Source: Candidatus Peregrinibacteria bacterium CG10_big_fil_rev_8_21_14_0_10_42_8 (GTDB lineage: Bacteria; Patescibacteriota; Gracilibacteria; Peribacterales; Peribacteraceae). From it: DNA of 33,947 nucleotides. This document shows positions 17,003 to 26,240 of the stretch, piece by piece. The stretch spans positions 1 through 33,947 of the forward strand of contig PFDQ01000038.1 of the NCBI GenBank assembly GCA_002772815.1. The letters run 5' to 3'. The notes beneath the pieces are model-generated. The model did no database searches. It was not told where the DNA came from and worked only from the letters and a program-made list of their open reading frames with translations. The position numbers and the translations under genes were made by a program. Every line of letters begins with the position of its first letter. Position 1 is the first letter of the stretch.

Positions 17003-17077
17003 GCGGGTATAGTACAATGGCTAGTACGTCGGCCTTCCAAGCCGAATATACGGGTTCGATTCCCGTTACCCGCTCCA
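17003..17077 (+). tRNA. tRNA-Gly (anticodon TCC), CCA encoded
   Basis: GCGGGTATAGTACAATGGCTAGTACGTCGGCCTTCCAAGCCGAATATACGGGTTCGATTCCCGTTACCCGCTCCA; acceptor GCGGGTA/TACCCGC, anticodon loop CTTCCAA. Confidence 0.95.
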
Positions 17078-18691
17078 ACAAGATTCAACACTTCTTAAAA
17101 CGTCAGATTCTACTTCCCTTAGCGGTTTTGCGAAGGTTTTTCGCAGTTGTATATCACCTAAAATGGACTGAGTATCCTTCATGCACTTCTGAAACGTGTT
17201 ATATGGCTCTCTGACTTGCAAATCCAGCTCTCCATCTTTCAGTTGTATAACCTGACCGATACGGTGCAGGATCTCTAGCTTCTTTTCTCTGCCACCGTTA
17301 TCAAAACGCTCTTTGAGTTTTAATGTGAAGTTGAGTTCATCCACGATGTCCTGCGTCCACTGATCGGAAGAAGCATCAAAATCATTCACAAGTTTTTTTT
17401 GGTGATCTTTCTCTGCACGAAGCTGTTTAAGTTTCTCACTGAAGATGTCCTCAGGGAGCCGCGTAGCTTCGCTGAGCTGACGATCAACAAGAGTATCAAT
17501 CTTCTCAACCGTTTCCTGATAATTGCCCTGATGGTTCTCCCAAGCAGTCTTGTGCTGTTTGATACGGTCTCCTTGCGAGAGTTTCAGCCTCTCCAAGCAC
17601 CATTCAATAAACGCCTGAGGAATATCAGCAGTGGCTACATAAGCTGTCAGCTGTATCTCCAAAGGCTTTTCGGACACTGATTTTTTCTGTGAGCACTTCA
17701 CTGCTTTTCGATTGTGACCGCAGCGGTAGTAACGATATGTCTTCTGTTCCCCCGTACTCTTTATTTCTTTCTCTATCAGATTCACAACGATCATTGCCCC
17801 GCACTCGCCGCAGTGGATGAGACCCGCATACGGGTTGAGATACTTTCTCTGTCGTGGCTTGCCCTTTTTTCCAAGAATGGACTGCGCTTTTTCAAACTCC
17901 TCTTCCGTAATCATAGGTTTATGCTCCCCTTGATAGGTCTCACCTCCCCACTCATACACTCCAAAGTAGAACGGATTAGTGAAGATCTGATAGAGAGTTG
18001 TCAGCCCCAGCGGTCGTGTCTCTCTACCTCCCCTCCCCGCACGGACAGTCATGCCCCAGTCTTTATTCGCCATCTTCAAGATCTGTGGAACTGTGTACGC
18101 CCGTGTCAGCAGGGTATCCCAGCATCGCCTCACAAGATCAAATCGCTCTTCATCCACAAGAATCTTTTTCTCACCTTTCAGTCCTGCGTAATCGTTGATG
18201 TAACCCACTGTTGCTTTGCCTGGTCTCCATCCCATCTTCGCCTTTTGTAGCATCCCACGTTTCACATCACGGGAGAGGTCGATGGAGTACTGCGTAGCCA
18301 TGCCTAGCTCCATTGCCATTTGCAGCACGTTATCTGTTGGAAGATAGGTTTTATGCGGAGTGACGATTGCTTTCAATGTTCCTTCTTGAAGCAGCCACTG
18401 GATCTCGCCACCCTCTATGGGATTACGAGCAAGGCGGTTGAGCTTCCAGCAGTACAGCACTTCAATCTTCCCAGCGTGAATATCGGCAATCATTGCCTTA
18501 TAGCTACTGCGCTTGTGTGGTGTCTTTGCAGTGCCTGAGTCTGAGTACGATTTCACAAACTCATCACCGTTGCGCTGCGCCATGAGTACGTTTTCATTGT
18601 GCTGACCATCATTGGAAAGAATCTGACGATCTTCAGCGTCACTACTTTTCCGACAATAATCAGCGGCTTTCATACTCATACTGGGAAGCAT
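17066..18691 (-). CDS. large serine recombinase (resolvase N-term, recombinase domain, zinc ribbon, coiled coil)
   Basis: AADYCRKSSDAEDRQILSNDGQ catalytic N-terminus, LNRLARNPIEGGEIQWLL, GLIHCGECGAMIVVN...YRCGHNRKAVKC zinc ribbon. Stop codon (17066-17068) is inside the tRNA-Gly acceptor stem. Confidence 0.95.
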   Translation of the reverse strand: MLPSMSMKAADYCRKSSDAEDRQILSNDGQHNENVLMAQRNGDEFVKSYSDSGTAKTPHKRSSYKAMIADIHAGKIEVLYCWKLNRLARNPIEGGEIQWLLQEGTLKAIVTPHKTYLPTDNVLQMAMELGMATQYSIDLSRDVKRGMLQKAKMGWRPGKATVGYINDYAGLKGEKKILVDEERFDLVRRCWDTLLTRAYTVPQILKMANKDWGMTVRAGRGGRETRPLGLTTLYQIFTNPFYFGVYEWGGETYQGEHKPMITEEEFEKAQSILGKKGKPRQRKYLNPYAGLIHCGECGAMIVVNLIEKEIKSTGEQKTYRYYRCGHNRKAVKCSQKKSVSEKPLEIQLTAYVATADIPQAFIEWCLERLKLSQGDRIKQHKTAWENHQGNYQETVEKIDTLVDRQLSEATRLPEDIFSEKLKQLRAEKDHQKKLVNDFDASSDQWTQDIVDELNFTLKLKERFDNGGREKKLEILHRIGQVIQLKDGELDLQVREPYNTFQKCMKDTQSILGDIQLRKTFAKPLREVESDVLRSVESCWSG

Positions 18692-19962
18692 TATACCGTG
18701 GAAGTAGGCAAAATGAGACTGCTAAATTTGGGATCTGGCTCGTATATCCATGTTTTACCGTCAATATCCTTCTCACGGCGCAAAACTCCGAGGTGTGCCA
18801 ACTGATCAAGATGTCGCTTGATGGTCTTATAATTTTTATTGAGGATGTCTGATCCTTCCTTGGCTGTAACCTTTGGTTCTACATGGAATACAGCAAGAGC
18901 CTCTGCACGTTGCACGGGCATAGAGGAGAGTGCCACCCGCTTCGCCGTAAGAAATTCACGCTGTGTAACACCTTCTTTACCTCGCAGAATGGCAAGGGAT
19001 CGGCACAGTGCTTTGAGTTGATGCAGGGCGCGGAAGGGTTCTTCCTTCTGAATTTCCTCTACTTCCTCAAAGGTTTTTACTTCACCATCCTCTGTTTCAA
19101 ATTTTTGCGAACGTGTCCGCACTTCTCCTCTGGCTCTTGCTACAAGTTCTGCGAGCAGGTTGAGCTGTGTGCGAATTTCGGCTGGCACAGGCTCCAATTG
19201 CACTCCATAGGTGCGAATACCCTCACAAAGAGCTGTAACGTACTGTGAAGCGGCTTCGGAAGCCGCTGTGATACGTTCTTTGAGATCCTCTGACCACGCA
19301 ACGACAAAGCCTTTCTTCCTATCATCATCACTCAGCTCCGCAACACGTATTGTTAGAAAACGAGCACCAACTTGATTCATGTACGTCTGTCGCTGGTTCA
19401 ATCCCATCGGGGTGACGCATCCGATATGTGAGAAAGAAGCGTTGTAGCGCACTGTGCCGCGTGCGCCGCTATGTTTGGAGAATGTACCGTCATAGATGCT
19501 TACCAAGTCGCTCAGGAGTTGTTTTACGGTTTCCTCTGAACGCCCAAAGAAGCTCGTATAGTCTTTGCAGATAAAACAGCTGCCATCCAGTTTTGGTAAC
19601 AGATCTTGCGGCTTATCCTTACTGCCAAGACCACTGATAAAAGGATTCGTAGTCAGCACATCTATCATCACGGTATCCGCAGCCTTGGAGAGCAAGGAAA
19701 CGAGCTGTGTCTTGTTACTGGAAGGATTGCCAACAAGCATGATCCAAATAGGATTACGCCTCTCAATCTCCTTGCTGATGTACGCCGCCAGAATAACCTC
19801 TACAAGGTCATCATCGAGCAATCCGATGGTGCGGGTGCGTTCCAGTACATCTTCCAGGAGGACGGGCGGCTTTTGGCCGCCCGTACTACTAGGAGTTTCT
19901 GTCCGTTGCTCAGGAGCTAATGGACTATGCATTTCTGGGTCTATCGAGTGCGATTCTGACAT
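18691..19962 (-). CDS. AAA+ / P-loop ATPase with C-terminal winged helix (MCM-like helicase or recombination regulator)
   Basis: Walker A VGNPSSNKTQLV, Walker B-like GSCFICKDYTSFF, sensor-like ASFSHIGCVTPMG, arginine-finger-like VGARFLTIR, wH VTAKEGSDILNKNYKTIKRHLDQLAHLGVLRREKDIDGKTWIYEP; start ATG 19962 preferred; stop overlaps recombinase ATG (TAATG). Confidence 0.75.
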   Translation of the reverse strand: MSESHSIDPEMHSPLAPEQRTETPSSTGGQKPPVLLEDVLERTRTIGLLDDDLVEVILAAYISKEIERRNPIWIMLVGNPSSNKTQLVSLLSKAADTVMIDVLTTNPFISGLGSKDKPQDLLPKLDGSCFICKDYTSFFGRSEETVKQLLSDLVSIYDGTFSKHSGARGTVRYNASFSHIGCVTPMGLNQRQTYMNQVGARFLTIRVAELSDDDRKKGFVVAWSEDLKERITAASEAASQYVTALCEGIRTYGVQLEPVPAEIRTQLNLLAELVARARGEVRTRSQKFETEDGEVKTFEEVEEIQKEEPFRALHQLKALCRSLAILRGKEGVTQREFLTAKRVALSSMPVQRAEALAVFHVEPKVTAKEGSDILNKNYKTIKRHLDQLAHLGVLRREKDIDGKTWIYEPDPKFSSLILPTSTV

Positions 19963-20102
19963 GATCGTAGTTGGGAAAGTGGTACAAGTTTCCAGCGTTT
20001 GAAGCGGGGTCTGATTGCACCCGTGTATGCCTCTGTCCATGTCAGCTCTTCGTCAAGAACAAGGACTTTCGGTTCGTTGGCATTGGAGATAAAATTGGTC
20101 AT
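19941..20102 (-). CDS. short ORF, 53 aa, unknown (not in supplied ORF track)
   Basis: MTNFISNANEPKVLVLDEELTWTEAYTGAIRPRFKRWKLVPLSQLRSCQNRTR*; overlaps start of the ATPase gene by 22 nt. Confidence 0.5.
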   Translation of the reverse strand: MTNFISNANEPKVLVLDEELTWTEAYTGAIRPRFKRWKLVPLSQLRSCQNRTR

Positions 20103-20158
20103 AGTAAATAAGGGAATAGATCTAAATGGCTGCCAGGCCTTGGGTCTTTTTCCCCTAT

Positions 20159-20323
20159 TTAGGGAGGCTCTTCATGCTTGTGCAGTTGAGGCTCTACGAC
20201 GATCTGTACCAATCCCAACAGGTTCTCTGCATACTCCCACGCCTGTTCGTTCGTAATGGGTTTGCCCATCTCTCGCTCCCATAGCTCAGCAAAGCCGACA
20301 ATGTCTTTGTCTGTCAGCTTCAT
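20159..20323 (-). CDS. short ORF, 54 aa, unknown (not in supplied ORF track)
   Basis: MKLTDKDIVGFAELWEREMGKPITNEQAWEYAENLLGLVQIVVEPQLHKHEEPP*; ATGA overlap with upstream ORF 20320..20565. Confidence 0.65.
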   Translation of the reverse strand: MKLTDKDIVGFAELWEREMGKPITNEQAWEYAENLLGLVQIVVEPQLHKHEEPP

Positions 20324-20565
20324 CGTTGAGACCAGAGAAGGGATTTAAGGTGCTTGTGCGCTGCCAGCAAACGTGAAGGCACAAGTAGGCATTCTCGACC
20401 ACTGGCAAATACCATGAGCAATCCATCAACTGACTCATTTCTCTCAAAGCAAAATTCACACTTCTGCCCGTCTACCTTCTCAACACCGACCAGCGGAACA
20501 CCAGACGCATAGAGGAAGGTAGCCTGTGGGAGGTCAGCGGTGTTGTAGGTTGAATAAATACTCAT
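20320..20565 (-). CDS. hypothetical protein (DUF5659-like)
   Basis: 81 aa; YNTADLPQATFLYASGVPLVGVEKVDGQKCEFCFE. Confidence 0.6.
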   Translation of the reverse strand: MSIYSTYNTADLPQATFLYASGVPLVGVEKVDGQKCEFCFERNESVDGLLMVFASGRECLLVPSRLLAAHKHLKSLLWSQR

Positions 20566-20634
20566 AATTTGGACAGGAAAAAACTGCCCAGAGCCTACAA
20601 ACGATGCTGTGATTCACATGTGAGCAAAGCTCTC

Positions 20635-21321
20635 TCACTCCCACACCTTTGGATTTACGCTATAGCCGCTGTCAGTAGGAAGTAGGAAATCAAAATCAAT
20701 TTTGACTTCTTCTCTCACAAGTGAATTGAGATTGCGAACTGCATCAGCCACAGTTCTTCCCGTGTAATCCTCTCCTCGTTTTTCTAACACATCTTCCACT
20801 GCTGACTTTGCAATCTCCTCTGTATTGAGGTGACTCAATAGATTGCAAACAATGATAGGTATGCCTTTACCTGTCCCTCGTACCCTTGCAGAGAGATCTA
20901 TATTTGTACCTCGGACTTGCAAAACCACCTGCTTCCCATTGGCAATAAACCACCAACCCTTTACTTGAATTGTTTGTTTTTGTTGTTGTACGGGAAATCT
21001 GCCCTGCTCAAAACCGTGCTTTATCCACTCTTCCATGACACCAAAGAATTGACGGAGGTTTTCTCCAATTTTGAAATAGTACTCTACGGTGCCGTCATAC
21101 ATTATTGGTACACCTCCTCTATATCTCTTGTCGTCCTGAAAATTATTCCAAAGATTCGCAAGAATCGCATCAAATCTACCTGTAACCCCCTGTACGTCTT
21201 GTATGAAGTAATTGAGTTTCTGTAGATATTTGAGCCACGACTCGTCATTTGACTGTGGTTTCGGAATCCTACGCTTGTAACCGCGAATCTCCTTGATGAT
21301 TGATTCTTTGTCCATACTCAT
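20635..21321 (-). CDS. hypothetical protein
   Basis: 228 aa, no recognised family; operon position downstream of the zinc-ribbon ORF. Confidence 0.65.
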   Translation of the reverse strand: MSMDKESIIKEIRGYKRRIPKPQSNDESWLKYLQKLNYFIQDVQGVTGRFDAILANLWNNFQDDKRYRGGVPIMYDGTVEYYFKIGENLRQFFGVMEEWIKHGFEQGRFPVQQQKQTIQVKGWWFIANGKQVVLQVRGTNIDLSARVRGTGKGIPIIVCNLLSHLNTEEIAKSAVEDVLEKRGEDYTGRTVADAVRNLNSLVREEVKIDFDFLLPTDSGYSVNPKVWE

Positions 21322-21610
21322 ATTGCCCTAATTCTACTTGTTTCTTGCGTGTGGAACAATAAACAAGCCCAATACAATTCCGACATTTAAACCACCCAAG
21401 GTCAGCACGATAGAGAGTCTCGTATAGTCTCTCGCAACGACTGCAAACAAAGAAATACCTGTACCCATTCCCCAAATTGGTGATCTTTCCCACCACACAA
21501 ATAGTCTGTGCGCCGACTTCCAATGTAACTTCCACGGCATTCTGTGGAATTGCCGCTTTCACATCACGAATATGCAGCCTGTCGCAGTGTTCAACGAGGG
21601 GCTTTTTCAT
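21269..21610 (-). CDS. small zinc-ribbon protein
   Basis: From MKKPLVEHCDRL; CSRC...CRNC pair of CxxC knuckles (FFVCSRCERLYETLYRADLGWFKCRNCIGLVYCS). Confidence 0.6.
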   Translation of the reverse strand: MKKPLVEHCDRLHIRDVKAAIPQNAVEVTLEVGAQTICVVGKITNLGNGYRYFFVCSRCERLYETLYRADLGWFKCRNCIGLVYCSTRKKQVELGQYEYGQRINHQGDSRLQA

Positions 21611-21638
21611 ATTCGTATATCTTTGGTATCCTCTTGGC

Positions 21639-21890
21639 ATGAATAATCTCTTTGGTTGGCTCCGTCGCAATATCGCAGCAGTAGCATTATGCCTTGGTGT
21701 ATTGCTTGCTGTTTATGGGTTGCTTGGATTTGATAGTGATTACGGATGTCCAGTAGCGCGAGGCAATCTTGTAAGAAATGGCTGTGAAGGCACTGTCCGT
21801 TACTTCTATCCAAATGACGCAAGGAACACCGCAGGAATTGGAGCAGCACTGGTAGCTGTTGGCGTTCTGACCAGAAAAAGAAAAACCTAG
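21639..21890 (+). CDS. small two-TM membrane protein
   Basis: 83 aa from ATG 21639: MNNLFGWLRRNIAAVALCLGVLLAVYGLLGF...NTAGIGAALVAVGVLTRKRKT; ends converge with the 21887 ORF. Confidence 0.55.
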   Translation: MNNLFGWLRRNIAAVALCLGVLLAVYGLLGFDSDYGCPVARGNLVRNGCEGTVRYFYPNDARNTAGIGAALVAVGVLTRKRKT

Positions 21891-22492
21891 GGCTGCTCAT
21901 CTGATTTCTTTGGGGAAGCAGTACCCTGATTGATCTGCATGTTCTGGGCAACAATGGCATTCTTAGCCCTTATCTGAATTGGCGGTGAAACAAGATTTTG
22001 CAATGCTTGTGTGAGACGCACGATTTGATCATTTGCGCTCTCAATACCTCTTCGTAGCTCTGCAAGGTATTTGGTTCTCTCCGCAGCCCAATTGAATTTG
22101 TAACTACCGTCATCGTTTTGATTGTACTTAACACATTTGAACATACGTTCATACGACCATGCCTGATTCCAGGCATTGGTAAGTCTATGAATCAATATCC
22201 TCTTCGGTGCAGTATCCGTGCCAAATTGATCTTCTAGCTCTTCATAGATGCGCTCAACTCCCAATTTCAGATCTTCGTCAGCGAAGCCTACTGGAATCTG
22301 TGGTGTATTGATTGCAGCCCACCCCAAACATTTCTTCTCAATATCTTTAAACTCTTCTTCCTCCTTCTTTGTGCGCTTTTTCTCATAAAGCTTCCGATAC
22401 GCCTCCTGACGTACACGGTCTAGATATTGAAGCTGGGTCTCTTTAGCTTCCTTCGGTTGCTCTTTTTCGATGATGGCGAGTGTGGATGCCAC
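21887..22492 (-). CDS. hypothetical protein, helical/charged
   Basis: 201 aa; KRILIHRLTNAWNQAWSYERMFKCVKYN...KFNWAAERTKYLAELRRGIESANDQIVRLTQ. Confidence 0.65.
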   Translation of the reverse strand: MASTLAIIEKEQPKEAKETQLQYLDRVRQEAYRKLYEKKRTKKEEEEFKDIEKKCLGWAAINTPQIPVGFADEDLKLGVERIYEELEDQFGTDTAPKRILIHRLTNAWNQAWSYERMFKCVKYNQNDDGSYKFNWAAERTKYLAELRRGIESANDQIVRLTQALQNLVSPPIQIRAKNAIVAQNMQINQGTASPKKSDEQP

Positions 22493-22571
22493 CTCTGAAT
22501 TTTATCTAAATCCTTAGAGGGGGTTGTCATGGACAGAAAGTCCTAGGAAGAAGCAAAAACATGCTTTCATC

Positions 22572-23741
22572 TTAACAGCCGCGATCTTTGAGATATTGCT
22601 GACCCACTCCACTATCAAGCGACCCATTGGCAGCCATCTGCCGACGTAATTGCTGGCAATACTCTGTATGGTTTTGCTGGTTGATTCTATTCTGCTCATC
22701 AATCTGAATCTGCAATATTTGATCGTCCAATTCATGTTGCTGCCTTTCATATTCCTGATTTTGCCCATCTATCGCAGCTTGTTCTTGTAAAGACTGAAAG
22801 GTGTCTAGGGAACCGTCTATGATCTCTTGAGATTCTACGAATAACTCTACTTCTTTGAATAGCAGCGTCTGCGTTTTCGCTCTTACCGAAAGTATTTCCA
22901 TAGCCTCCAACGCTACGGAATAGGTCTTCAATGTCAAAAGCATCAGTGTGGAATATGGGGGACGGTAGCTTTCTGTTAGCTTACTTATGTCATAGAACCA
23001 TGCATCATACTGCTTCACTATCTTCGCCATTTTTTCCGCATTTGGATCGGGAACTGATGCTGTCGAAGAAATAGAGCTTGAGGATGATTCGCTAGATTTC
23101 TTTGAGGACGAAGTTTGCAATGTGGTGAATCGGTTTAGAGATTTTTCACGAATGTACATGGAACGGTATATGACCTCACTAATACCACCACGCTTCATGT
23201 CGGAAGTCGCGCCGAGGCTCCCGTTACTCTGTTCCAAGATGCCCTTATCCTTTGCCACCTTCACATATGGGGCATACCACGCATTGTTATCTACATCATC
23301 GTATAGGTAGGTCTGCTCAGCACCCGAGACTTGATAACCCTGCGAATTAACCACCATTTTTATGGATTCAACAGTATTCACCGTGTTTGCAGGTCTGAAC
23401 GTGCCATCAGGGTATCCATCAACCCAACCCTGTTCTTTGGCGTAGCAAACAAACGGCGCAAACCATTCACTTGTTACATCGGGAAAGCAGTTATTATAGT
23501 CCTCTAATGTTGGGGATACGCCTTTACCACCCACAAGGATCTTTAGAAGCTCTGCTCTGTTTACAGTATTTAACGGACGGAAAGCACCATCGGGATACCC
23601 ACCAATAACGCCTTTTTCATTCAAGTATTCAATCGCTGTCCTGTTCCTACTATTAGCAACGTCCAACAAGGAAGCCGCAAACGCTGGCACTGTAACCACC
23701 AAGAGTAATGCCGACGCGAAGACCTTTAGGAGTGTTTTCAT
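22572..23741 (-). CDS. secreted SLH-domain protein
   Basis: Signal peptide MKTLLKVFASALLLVVTVPAFA; three SLH-like repeats including EKGVIGGYPDGAFRPLNTVNRAELLKIL and EQGWVDGYPDGTFRPANTVNTVESIKMV; Ser-rich linker and Gln-rich coiled C-terminus. Confidence 0.88.
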   Translation of the reverse strand: MKTLLKVFASALLLVVTVPAFAASLLDVANSRNRTAIEYLNEKGVIGGYPDGAFRPLNTVNRAELLKILVGGKGVSPTLEDYNNCFPDVTSEWFAPFVCYAKEQGWVDGYPDGTFRPANTVNTVESIKMVVNSQGYQVSGAEQTYLYDDVDNNAWYAPYVKVAKDKGILEQSNGSLGATSDMKRGGISEVIYRSMYIREKSLNRFTTLQTSSSKKSSESSSSSISSTASVPDPNAEKMAKIVKQYDAWFYDISKLTESYRPPYSTLMLLTLKTYSVALEAMEILSVRAKTQTLLFKEVELFVESQEIIDGSLDTFQSLQEQAAIDGQNQEYERQQHELDDQILQIQIDEQNRINQQNHTEYCQQLRRQMAANGSLDSGVGQQYLKDRGC

Positions 23742-23800
23742 ATATAATCTTAGTAACAGGATAACAAATCGAGAATGAGGAGCAATGTATATTACCAACC

Positions 23801-23816
23801 TTGGTTTGTAAACCAA
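23801..23816. promoter_or_regulatory. operator-like inverted repeat TTGGTTT-GT-AAACCAA
   Basis: Seven-bp arms, 2-nt spacer, in the intergenic region between divergent SLH gene and XRE gene. Confidence 0.5.
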
Positions 23817-23844
23817 AATAGGAAAGTAGACCACAATTCAGTGG

Positions 23845-24069
23845 TTGAAAAATAGCGACATTCGTATACGGCTCGCTGAACGAATACGGCAATTGCGTGC
23901 CGATAGAAAGCTTACCCAGGAAAAATTGGCGCAGAAAGCTGGGCTGAGCTTGTACTATGTTCAAGTACTGGAATCCCGACAACCAAAGAAGAACGCCACC
24001 ATCAACACACTGGAAAAACTGGCGAATGCTTTTGAATTGGAAGTTTGGGAGTTCATAAAGTTTGATTGA
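23845..24069 (+). CDS. XRE/Cro family helix-turn-helix regulator (TTG start)
   Basis: IRIRLAERIRQLRADRKLTQEKLAQKAGLSLYYVQVLESRQPKKNATINTLEKLANAFELEVWEFI. Confidence 0.88.
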   Translation: MKNSDIRIRLAERIRQLRADRKLTQEKLAQKAGLSLYYVQVLESRQPKKNATINTLEKLANAFELEVWEFIKFD

Positions 24070-24112
24070 TCAATAGACACAAACTCCTAGGAGACACTAC
24101 AATTAAACAACT

Positions 24113-24424
24113 ATGAAAAATCCAATTGAATATATCAGAAGCAAAAAAACTGAAATATTTTTGCAGAAAAAATGGTGGCACAGACTATTGAAGGTTGGAT
24201 TTTATTTTGGCTTTGCATGGTTTGGTCTGAAGCTATTAGCAGAATTGGCAGATTACTGTTCAACAGAAACTATTGGGAATCAGGTATTTGAAACAAGCCC
24301 ACTTGAATGTTCAGGGGTAGCTGGTTTTTACGTAGCTTGGTGGCTTTTCTGTTTTTTATTAGTACAAATCGGATATTACAAAATCTTTTTGTACATCGTT
24401 TACGGTAAAGATATTCCAAAATAG
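24113..24424 (+). CDS. small two-TM membrane protein
   Basis: 103 aa; WWHRLLKVGFYFGFAWFGLKLLAEL ... YVAWWLFCFLLVQIGYYKIFLYIVYG. Confidence 0.55.
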   Translation: MKNPIEYIRSKKTEIFLQKKWWHRLLKVGFYFGFAWFGLKLLAELADYCSTETIGNQVFETSPLECSGVAGFYVAWWLFCFLLVQIGYYKIFLYIVYGKDIPK

Positions 24425-24471
24425 CACGAATAGATTTTTCCTATTACTATGAATAATTCCCACTCCCTAAA

Positions 24472-24675
24472 ATGAAGAAAAGTGATTCAAGCCAAGCATT
24501 GATCGAAATAGAGTCGATTGAATTAGAGTGGCAACGACTGCTTTCAGTTCTAACCGATGAAGAAAAGGAAGAGAAACGACGTGAAAATGCAAAACGGGTA
24601 GGATTGATTCTATCACGAGAAATCCAGCGTCTCAGCGAGGAGATGGATAATTCAGCACCGACCAAAGGGCAGTAA
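24472..24675 (+). CDS. small charged helical protein
   Basis: 67 aa; MKKSDSSQALIEIESIELEWQRLLSVLTDEEKEEKRRENAKRVGLILSREIQRLSEEMDNSAPTKGQ. Confidence 0.45.
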   Translation: MKKSDSSQALIEIESIELEWQRLLSVLTDEEKEEKRRENAKRVGLILSREIQRLSEEMDNSAPTKGQ

Positions 24676-24814
24676 TTATGGACACAATCTCCTAGAAGCA
24701 CTCATTCCAGTTGTAATAACATTCAGCCACCCGCTCTACATCGTACAATGAGAGTCAAAGAAGCTGCAAAGATTGAATATATATGAAGCAGAAAGAAGAT
24801 GGTATGATGAGGGC

Positions 24815-25582
24815 ATGACTGAACTACTAGAAATCACTGGAATCAGTATTTTTCTCTATATGACGTTTGTATATGGAGTCTCTATCTTTCTGAAGGATGC
24901 GAGCATAGTAGACGTCGCATGGGGGCTTGGTTTTATTATGATCAGTTGGCTCAATGTGTACATTATGGGAGTACACACTCCTCTAGTATTTGTAAGTATT
25001 ATTGTAACTATCTGGGGGGCAAGACTTGCATGGCACATCTTAAAAAGAAAAATAAGTAGACCTGGAGAGGATTTTCGATATGCAGCATGGAGAGAAAGTT
25101 GGGGGAAAATGTTTTTACTACGGAGCTATTTTCAAGTCTTTCTGTTGCAAGGGCTCATCATGTTTTTTATCTCTCTTCCAATAATGGCAATTGCAAATAA
25201 CCCAAGAGAATCGTGGAGCTTATGGATGGTTCTCGGCTCTATAGTATGGGCTGGTGGATTTGCCTGTGAGGGCATTGCCGATTCCCAACTATCGCACTTC
25301 AAGAGTAATCCTCAGAACAAAGGGAAAATAATGACAAATGGAATTTGGAAGTTCTCTCGTCATCCAAATTATTTTGGCGAAAGTGTACAGTGGTGGGGTG
25401 TATGGGTCATATCACTCTCTTTTCCTTATTGGTGGACTATTGTCAGTCCACTACTCCTGACGTACTTATTGCTCTATGTATCTGGAGTACCAATGCTTGA
25501 AAAAAAATATGAAGGCGACCCAGAGTTTGAAAGATATAAAGCAAATACAAGCGCATTCATTCCATGGTTTCCACGCTCATAA
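24815..25582 (+). CDS. DUF1295 / steroid 5-alpha-reductase-like membrane protein
   Basis: DASIVDVAWGLGFI, LWSRHPNYFGE-type motif (GIWKFSRHPNYFGESVQWWGVW), GVPMLEKKYEGDPEFERYKANTSAFIPWFP. Confidence 0.88.
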   Translation: MTELLEITGISIFLYMTFVYGVSIFLKDASIVDVAWGLGFIMISWLNVYIMGVHTPLVFVSIIVTIWGARLAWHILKRKISRPGEDFRYAAWRESWGKMFLLRSYFQVFLLQGLIMFFISLPIMAIANNPRESWSLWMVLGSIVWAGGFACEGIADSQLSHFKSNPQNKGKIMTNGIWKFSRHPNYFGESVQWWGVWVISLSFPYWWTIVSPLLLTYLLLYVSGVPMLEKKYEGDPEFERYKANTSAFIPWFPRS

Positions 25583-25589
25583 TAACTGT

Positions 25590-26240
25590 ATGAAACTTCT
25601 CCAAAAGAAATATATGACGCCAATTATAATACTCGCAGTATGTCTTGGGCTTTGGATGCTTTACGGATACCTCAGTATCCGAAATATTGAAAAACCAACA
25701 TACTCAGTATCGCAAACCCTCGAAAGAAAAATTGAGATACGAGAATATGCACCAATGATTGTTGCAGCGACGACCGTCGATGGTCCATACGATGAAGCCG
25801 TCAACAATGGTTTTAGAATTATCGCTGATTATATTTTTGGAAACAATACATCAAAGGGGTCCATCGCTATGACTAGTCCAGTCATCCAAGAGTCGTCTTC
25901 TTCAATTGCAATGACAACACCTGTATTGCAAGAAAAAAACAACAACGAAACATTTACCATTCGTTTTGTGATGCCATCAAAATACACCATGGAAACCATT
26001 CCTAAGCCGAATAATGTAAAAGTCACTCTGGCAGAAGTGCCAAGCCGAACAATAGCTACTATTATGTTTTCTGGACTGTGGAGTAATGCAAAAGCAGAAA
26101 AATATACAGCGCTCCTCGGAAAAGTAATGGATACGAAAGGCTACAAGATTATATCGAACCCTCAATACGCTCGATATAATCCACCGTGGACGCCACCGTG
26201 GATGAGGCTGAATGAAATTTGGGTTGAAGTTTCTTTGTAA
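25590..26240 (+). CDS. SOUL heme-binding family protein
   Basis: EIREYAPMIVAATTVDGPYDEAVNNGFRIIADYIFGNNTSKGSIAMTSPVIQ...NEIWVEV. Confidence 0.9.
   Translation: MKLLQKKYMTPIIILAVCLGLWMLYGYLSIRNIEKPTYSVSQTLERKIEIREYAPMIVAATTVDGPYDEAVNNGFRIIADYIFGNNTSKGSIAMTSPVIQESSSSIAMTTPVLQEKNNNETFTIRFVMPSKYTMETIPKPNNVKVTLAEVPSRTIATIMFSGLWSNAKAEKYTALLGKVMDTKGYKIISNPQYARYNPPWTPPWMRLNEIWVEVSL

Follow-up and report, generated by a model that had tools for sequence, protein, structure and literature searches.

The question raised by this locus is whether a serine recombinase gene that runs into the end of a tRNA marks a mobile element, and where such an element would begin and end. Serine recombinases in tRNA genes have been called rare, the cases being the actinomycete integrative and conjugative elements (AICEs) of Mycobacterium (tRNA-Leu) and phage phiRSM1 (tRNA-Ser) (PMC3218068; PMC4471427), and serine integrases in tRNA genes have also been described as 'not known' (PMC4383910). 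The window, by which we mean the whole stretch of DNA analysed (33,947 nucleotides; positions 1 to 33,947 of contig PFDQ01000038.1, Candidatus Peregrinibacteria bacterium CG10_big_fil_rev_8_21_14_0_10_42_8), carries a large serine recombinase (LSR) gene ending inside a tRNA-Gly(TCC) gene. An earlier note, made from the sequence alone, had proposed here a ~7.67 kb element, driven by the LSR into the tRNA end, in a genome resembling the candidate phyla radiation (CPR). Our analysis bears this out: an integrative element of about 17073-24733 (~7.66 kb) was, with a probability of roughly 0.88, put at the tRNA-Gly end by the LSR. The host genome (1.01 Mb, hereafter G000) is placed by its sequence in a Candidatus Peribacter species (Peregrinibacteria, family Peribacteraceae), in keeping with the CPR-like character already suspected.

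The target tRNA-Gly(TCC) was located by ARAGORN at 17003-17077 (plus strand), with an encoded CCA and with attL in its 3' end. The LSR gene (17066-18691, minus strand; 541 aa) has its stop codon TAA as the complement of 17066-17068, and the tRNA call and stop position together confirmed the overlap of 12 nt with the tRNA 3' end that had been read from the sequence before; read in complement, the CCA of the tRNA supplies the C-terminal Trp codon TGG. Pfam matches were above cut-offs for Resolvase (2.7e-13), Recombinase (7.9e-10), and Zn_ribbon_recom (4.2e-9), and residues R14, S16, R86, and R89 were invariant in an alignment with 14 relatives. The AlphaFold2 model (predicted local distance difference test, pLDDT, 77) matched the SPbeta, PhiC31, Bxb1, and A118 integrases in Foldseek, with E values down to 1.7e-18. 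By sequence and predicted fold the enzyme is thus a large serine recombinase (serine integrase), and we infer that it is active. A second LSR fragment of the same genome, at a contig end (L015, G000:C13:194-841), is 31% identical to it. C-terminal remnants occur in other genera, at a tRNA-Gly(TCC) (L109, G068:C11; 78% identical to the window LSR) and at a tRNA-Gly(GCC) (L123/L104, G041:C12; 54%).

The direct repeat ACCCGCTC reported in the earlier note was present in exactly two copies in the window, corresponding to the core copies of attL (17068-17075, plus strand) and attR (24729-24736, plus strand), and its reverse complement had none. The expectation for a chance 8-mer repeat in ~10 kb is ~0.1-0.15 (4^-8, our own arithmetic), and taken alone the repeat is weak evidence. 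It is raised beyond chance by the flanking right-end sequence, which matches that of the best relative, G018, a member of another genus of the family whose LSR is 59% identical to that of the window and likewise sits at tRNA-Gly(TCC). The element of G018 has an 11-bp copy of the tRNA 6.6 kb away, and the 55 nt preceding this copy matched the window at 39/55 positions at exactly the expected place, 24674, vs. 29/55 at the runner-up place. The stretch 24674-24728 (plus strand) was therefore taken as the conserved right end, the putative P arm of attR; it contains AGTTGTAATA (24709-24718), which in the window and in G018 alike precedes tRNA position -10 by exactly 20 nt. An AGTTG-type arm at this same distance from position -10 marks the right ends of six elements, whose targets are Gly, Lys, Asn, and Cys tRNAs; an arm-to-core offset of 20 did better than the offsets of 19 and 21 used as controls, which gave one comparable match. 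Long repeats of the tRNA 3' end did not mark the right end in most sister elements, the arm-plus-core search succeeding for these six; a further element, at tRNA-Leu in G056, has a direct repeat of 18 bp. Since a 20-nt arm match without more context was not significant (14/20 at four places in 17 kb), we relied on the 55-nt match. The right boundary, predicted in this way, is regarded as secure because these 55 nt, with the tRNA copy directly after them, also close the homologous element of G018.

On the left, the P' arm of attL (17078-17102, plus strand) doubles as the stretch that codes for the LSR C-terminus, and it can be aligned to what immediately follows other target tRNAs. Set against the left arms of sister elements, the G018 right arm shows a shared ACTGGAAT-like sequence whose centre of symmetry is at tRNA positions -6/-5. 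As judged from arm symmetry only, the crossover is most likely the dinucleotide GC at these positions (17072-17073), around which the predicted attP would read GCCACCCG^CTCCAACAAG; with this crossover the element would measure 7661 bp, close to the size first proposed. The layout is that used by Islander, with a whole tRNA at one end, a tRNA 3' fragment at the other, and the integrase adjoining the tRNA. Elsewhere, second att-like sites were found 7.7 and 8.3 kb from a tRNA-Lys (L214), and the end of a tRNA-Glu recurs together with its arm as a long repeat 4.6 kb away (L058), which suggests tandem insertions.

When the two ends of the element were joined in silico, the LSR read past WSG into WLNVITTGMSASRRLCP and a stop, coded by the complement of the right end. 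The same operation in G018 gave the tail LLESITTVMRPARSLCP and a stop after WSG, with the same frame and length as in the window and partial likeness of sequence, and in five further elements the LSR frame was also open across the joined ends, with tails unlike these. As the joined ends continue the LSR frame into a conserved tail, the predicted attP lies in the 3' end of the LSR's own gene, and integration would alter the C-terminus of the enzyme. Integration likewise changes the integrase C-terminus in rumA integrative and conjugative elements (ICEs) and in phage Mx8, with altered activity in Mx8 (PMC4701971).

The mechanism that we propose is that the LSR would recombine attP with the 3' end of the host tRNA-Gly(TCC), the element furnishing the last few tRNA nucleotides, including CCA, so that the tRNA would stay intact. 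In the circle the LSR would read through attP into the conserved tail, and in the chromosome this tail would be exchanged for a few codons and a stop, antisense from the tRNA. It is conceivable, if rather doubtful, that the tRNA acts as a switch of the recombinase, the swapped tail giving a different activity or direction; the differing effects of the two tails might then be the reason why the frame of the CCA junction has been kept across dozens of target changes, a corollary that we hold just as tentatively.

The earlier note had also proposed aligning the enzyme with other CPR recombinases and inspecting their tRNA neighbourhoods. We surveyed 129 LSR open reading frames (ORFs) from the family and from a scan of GTDB contigs, the rates given here counting ORFs with room beyond the stop. 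Within the tRNA-type subfamilies of Peribacteraceae, 52/60 LSRs overlap the 3' end of a tRNA in antisense, as do 16/23 in other Patescibacteria (Moranbacteria, Parcubacteria, Nomurabacteria, Saccharimonadia, Doudnabacteria, and others). No overlap was found in LSRs from outside the phylum (0/13; Bacteroidota and others), nor in a second, shorter LSR clade of the same Peribacteraceae genomes (0/26), some of the non-overlapping LSRs being fragments. No co-directional tRNA was found among the surveyed LSRs. The tRNAs targeted belong to fifteen isotypes, and where CCA is encoded it stands in the same frame in 57/59 cases, the C-terminal Trp codon therefore being the complement of CCA. The surveyed enzymes are kin, and thus the overlaps are not independent events. 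Members of the second clade (L014, L127, L128, L130, L132, L133, L136, L138-L149, L152-L155, L157, L158, and L162) have ~430-550 aa and usually occur once per Peribacteraceae genome, never overlapping a tRNA. At four other loci (L186, L191, L204, and L208) the LSR ends enter T-arm-like antisense sequence where ARAGORN calls no tRNA; these are possibly decayed, intron-split, or masked tRNAs.

Targets changed readily among close relatives. LSRs that are 75-91% identical lie at tRNAs for Val, Lys, Ile, and Tyr, which have a CCCACCA or CCACCA end and the T-arm in common, and the similarity of tRNA positions -10 to -4 was 0.76 for pairs of LSRs at least 75% identical at different isotypes, vs. 0.36 in the background. 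The LSR tree displayed partial grouping by target, with frequent changes. Most likely the T-arm would be bound as the one half-site common to the targets, and the acceptor 3' end would set specificity, an arrangement that would explain easy switching of isotype.

Several observations weigh against the insertion as we have drawn it. No strain-level empty site was seen, and neither the circular junction (CCACCCGCTCCAACAAG) nor the predicted empty site (CCGTTACCCGCTCTACATCG) was found in the viral contigs searched. The attR core copy reads ACCCGCTCTA, and so either CCA was absent from the original tRNA 3' end or this end has since decayed. Clear right ends were obtained for just ~7 elements, no directionality factor or transfer gene was recognised in the element, and on the LSR tree tRNA use must have been gained or lost several times, so that a single origin of this use is not shown. 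To these must be added that the window tRNA-Gly(TCC) is 73% identical to that of its congeners at the same locus, and that the two host-type genes for DUF1295 and SOUL proteins (24773-26240), which in G000 stand between attR and an ABC-F gene, are not at this locus in the congeners. These last two points each feed a rival explanation.

The comparison with relatives lacking the insertion, suggested in the earlier note, was made with four congeners (G001, G002, G003, and G004). In all of them tRNA-Gly(TCC) adjoins the same upstream yidD gene with no LSR there, so that the locus is unoccupied at genus level and the gene order of the window is not repeated. One rival explanation is that the tRNA-Gly(TCC) arrived with the element or its neighbourhood and displaced the native gene. 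In its favour, the tRNAs of G000 and G018 are 92% alike, both differ in type from those of their own congeners, and no copy of the congener type was found in G000 or G018. Conversely, in many genera the tRNA found as a rule at this yidD locus is of the window type, with no LSR there (tRNA types were compared at L066-L069, L074, L076, and L077), and this weakened the candidate of an element that brings a whole tRNA. Target specificity (ACCCGCTC vs. GCCCGCTC) would explain the association without any transfer. In the flank tree G000 branches first within its genus, and therefore retention of an old tRNA type suffices there, G018 being nested inside the other tRNA type. We consider such a replacement unlikely. 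In G018 (L045 8318-17527) tRNA and element are inverted relative to yidD, the attR end facing yidD and the tRNA facing an MscL-like gene.

Still less probable is that the element is real and ends further to the right, including DUF1295 and SOUL, the repeat at 24729 being fortuitous or an old internal att site. This would agree with the congeners having neither gene at the locus (the ABC-F gene of the window lies ~0.35 kb downstream of the tRNA in G002, and ~1.1 kb in G003), and with the presence of a DUF1295 gene elsewhere in G003. The element of G018, however, has this same 55-nt end and tRNA copy, the ends as joined restore the conserved LSR tail, and every copy of a 16-nt motif described below lies to the left of 24733. 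The DUF1295-SOUL pair is best seen as a difference separate from the element insertion. That the LSR is an ordinary resident recombinase at a tRNA by chance, with no element inserted, would fit the near-ubiquitous second clade never at tRNAs, and is refuted for practical purposes by the 52/60 antisense overlaps in one frame at 15 isotypes, the att repeats, and the LSR-free loci of congeners.

With an LSR-driven insertion at the tRNA-Gly end as the preferred reading, the remaining content of the element can be described. The compact series of minus-strand ORFs in the earlier note is present but is not the whole element, which also has a minus-strand ORF at 22572-23834 and three plus-strand ORFs between 23845 and 24675. 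Next to the LSR, a P-loop ATPase (18691-20040, minus strand; Walker A GNPSSNKT) has a C-terminal winged-helix-like region. Genes 66-82% identical to it stand beside LSRs in G018, G056, and G066 (the G066 copy being broken by stop codons), and weak homology was found to an LSR-adjacent, Toprim-containing protein in G003. Its Pfam match to MCM had an E value of 0.16, and a fold prediction from a three-sequence alignment (mean pLDDT 32.6) was discarded. In other LSR elements Toprim or PriCT-1 proteins adjoin the LSR, therefore suggesting replication functions, and the product is a probable replication ATPase. The gene most widely common to sister elements, with tblastn matches in 10 elements, codes for a 54-aa protein (20159-20323, minus strand) that, as a guess, might be the directionality factor. 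Also on the minus strand are a DUF5659 protein (20320-20565; Pfam E 1.1e-6; 62-66% in three sister elements), a 228-aa ORF (20635-21321) with no relatives among the sister loci compared, a 133-aa ORF (21269-21670; 52-59% in three sister elements) whose CxxC pairs look zinc-ribbon-like by eye, a 201-aa ORF (21887-22492; 39-58% in three sister elements), and, as cargo, a 420-aa protein with three S-layer homology (SLH) domains (22572-23834; Pfam SLH 1.6e-21). On the plus strand follow a helix-turn-helix (HTH) regulator of Cro/CI type (23845-24069; Pfam HTH_3 1.1e-8; PHROG transcriptional regulators), a hydrophobic 103-aa ORF (24113-24424) with no Pfam or PADLOC match, and a 67-aa ORF (24472-24675) with no Pfam, PHROG, or PADLOC match. 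No defence system was found in the element by PADLOC save generic HTH and regulator matches. A search for the 16-nt motif GGACANAAASTCCTAG gave four copies in the 1.01-Mb genome, all inside the element (19889-19904, minus strand, inside the ATPase gene; 22531-22546, 24075-24090, and 24680-24695, plus strand, the last near the right end), and the control gave zero. The motif, often as ATGGACANAAASTCCTAG, recurs in sister elements (L046 and L052, with eight copies in L052); it is perhaps a site of replication or of a regulator.

Familiar classes of element fitted poorly. No relaxase, FtsK/TraB-type, or conjugation gene was matched in the element with Pfam, NCBIfam, or PHROGs, and for want of a transfer-gene match an AICE, an ICE, and an integrative and mobilizable element were rejected. 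A tyrosine-integrase island of the Islander type was likewise rejected, there being no Pfam Phage_integrase match among the element proteins scanned. No phage structural, packaging, or capsid gene was matched, the PHROG matches being limited to the LSR (as integrase), the HTH regulator, and the SLH part of 22572-23834. The last involved a 2079-position tail-protein model, at residues 55-206 only, and we attribute it to the common SLH domain rather than to a phage tail gene. In IMG/VR only three loci were matched, at 26-28% identity, and phage and plasmid proteins were 22-29% identical among the matches listed. A prophage was thus rejected, with neither structural or packaging genes nor a close relative in viral contigs. 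The staphylococcal cassette chromosome (SCC) also has an LSR (Ccr) beside a replication-type ATPase (Cch), but it inserts in rlmH and the target here is tRNA-Gly; NCBIfam Ccr matches were far below cut-off, the likeness of the ATPase to Cch is one of gene position only, and with the MCM match no better than noted above an SCC-like element was rejected.

Four published systems come closer in single features. Mycobacterium AICEs (Ghinet et al. 2011, PMC3218068) also have an LSR-type recombinase and sit in a tRNA gene, but they involve one tRNA, one genus, and actinomycete conjugation, in contrast with ~15 isotypes across Patescibacteria, no recognised AICE transfer gene, and a predicted attP inside the LSR frame. 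The Ralstonia filamentous phages phiRSM1/3 (PMC3218068, PMC4471427) enter the 3' 13 bp of tRNA-Ser with a serine recombinase; this is of resolvase/invertase type, and attP lies between genes and not in the recombinase ORF. Streptococcal rumA ICEs (PMC4701971) have att inside the serine integrase gene, with exchange of 3' ends and a changed integrase C-terminus, but they insert into a protein gene and alter it, whereas the tRNA here is intact. Tyrosine-integrase islands (Islander, PMC4383910) share the arrangement, the island being flanked by a complete tRNA gene on one side and a tRNA 3' piece on the other, with the integrase next to the tRNA. The open literature searched yielded no CPR-wide, multi-isotype LSR group whose attP is in the LSR frame; subscription papers were not covered, and the novelty of the group is therefore provisional.

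What appears to be new, with that proviso, is a group of LSRs in Patescibacteria at the tRNA ends of some fifteen amino acids, their own genes running into the target tRNAs. The automatically annotated C-termini of LSRs in these genomes should be read with caution, being tRNA-derived, and a tRNA antisense to an LSR end provides a rule to delimit CPR islands. The enzymes also form a set with conserved, predictable targets that could serve genome engineering. Closely related LSRs that differ by as little as 9% in protein sequence already use different isotypes, and the reading of T-arm and acceptor end by an LSR, together with the evolution of LSR specificity, becomes testable. For the small genomes of the CPR, such elements would be a route for the uptake of DNA.

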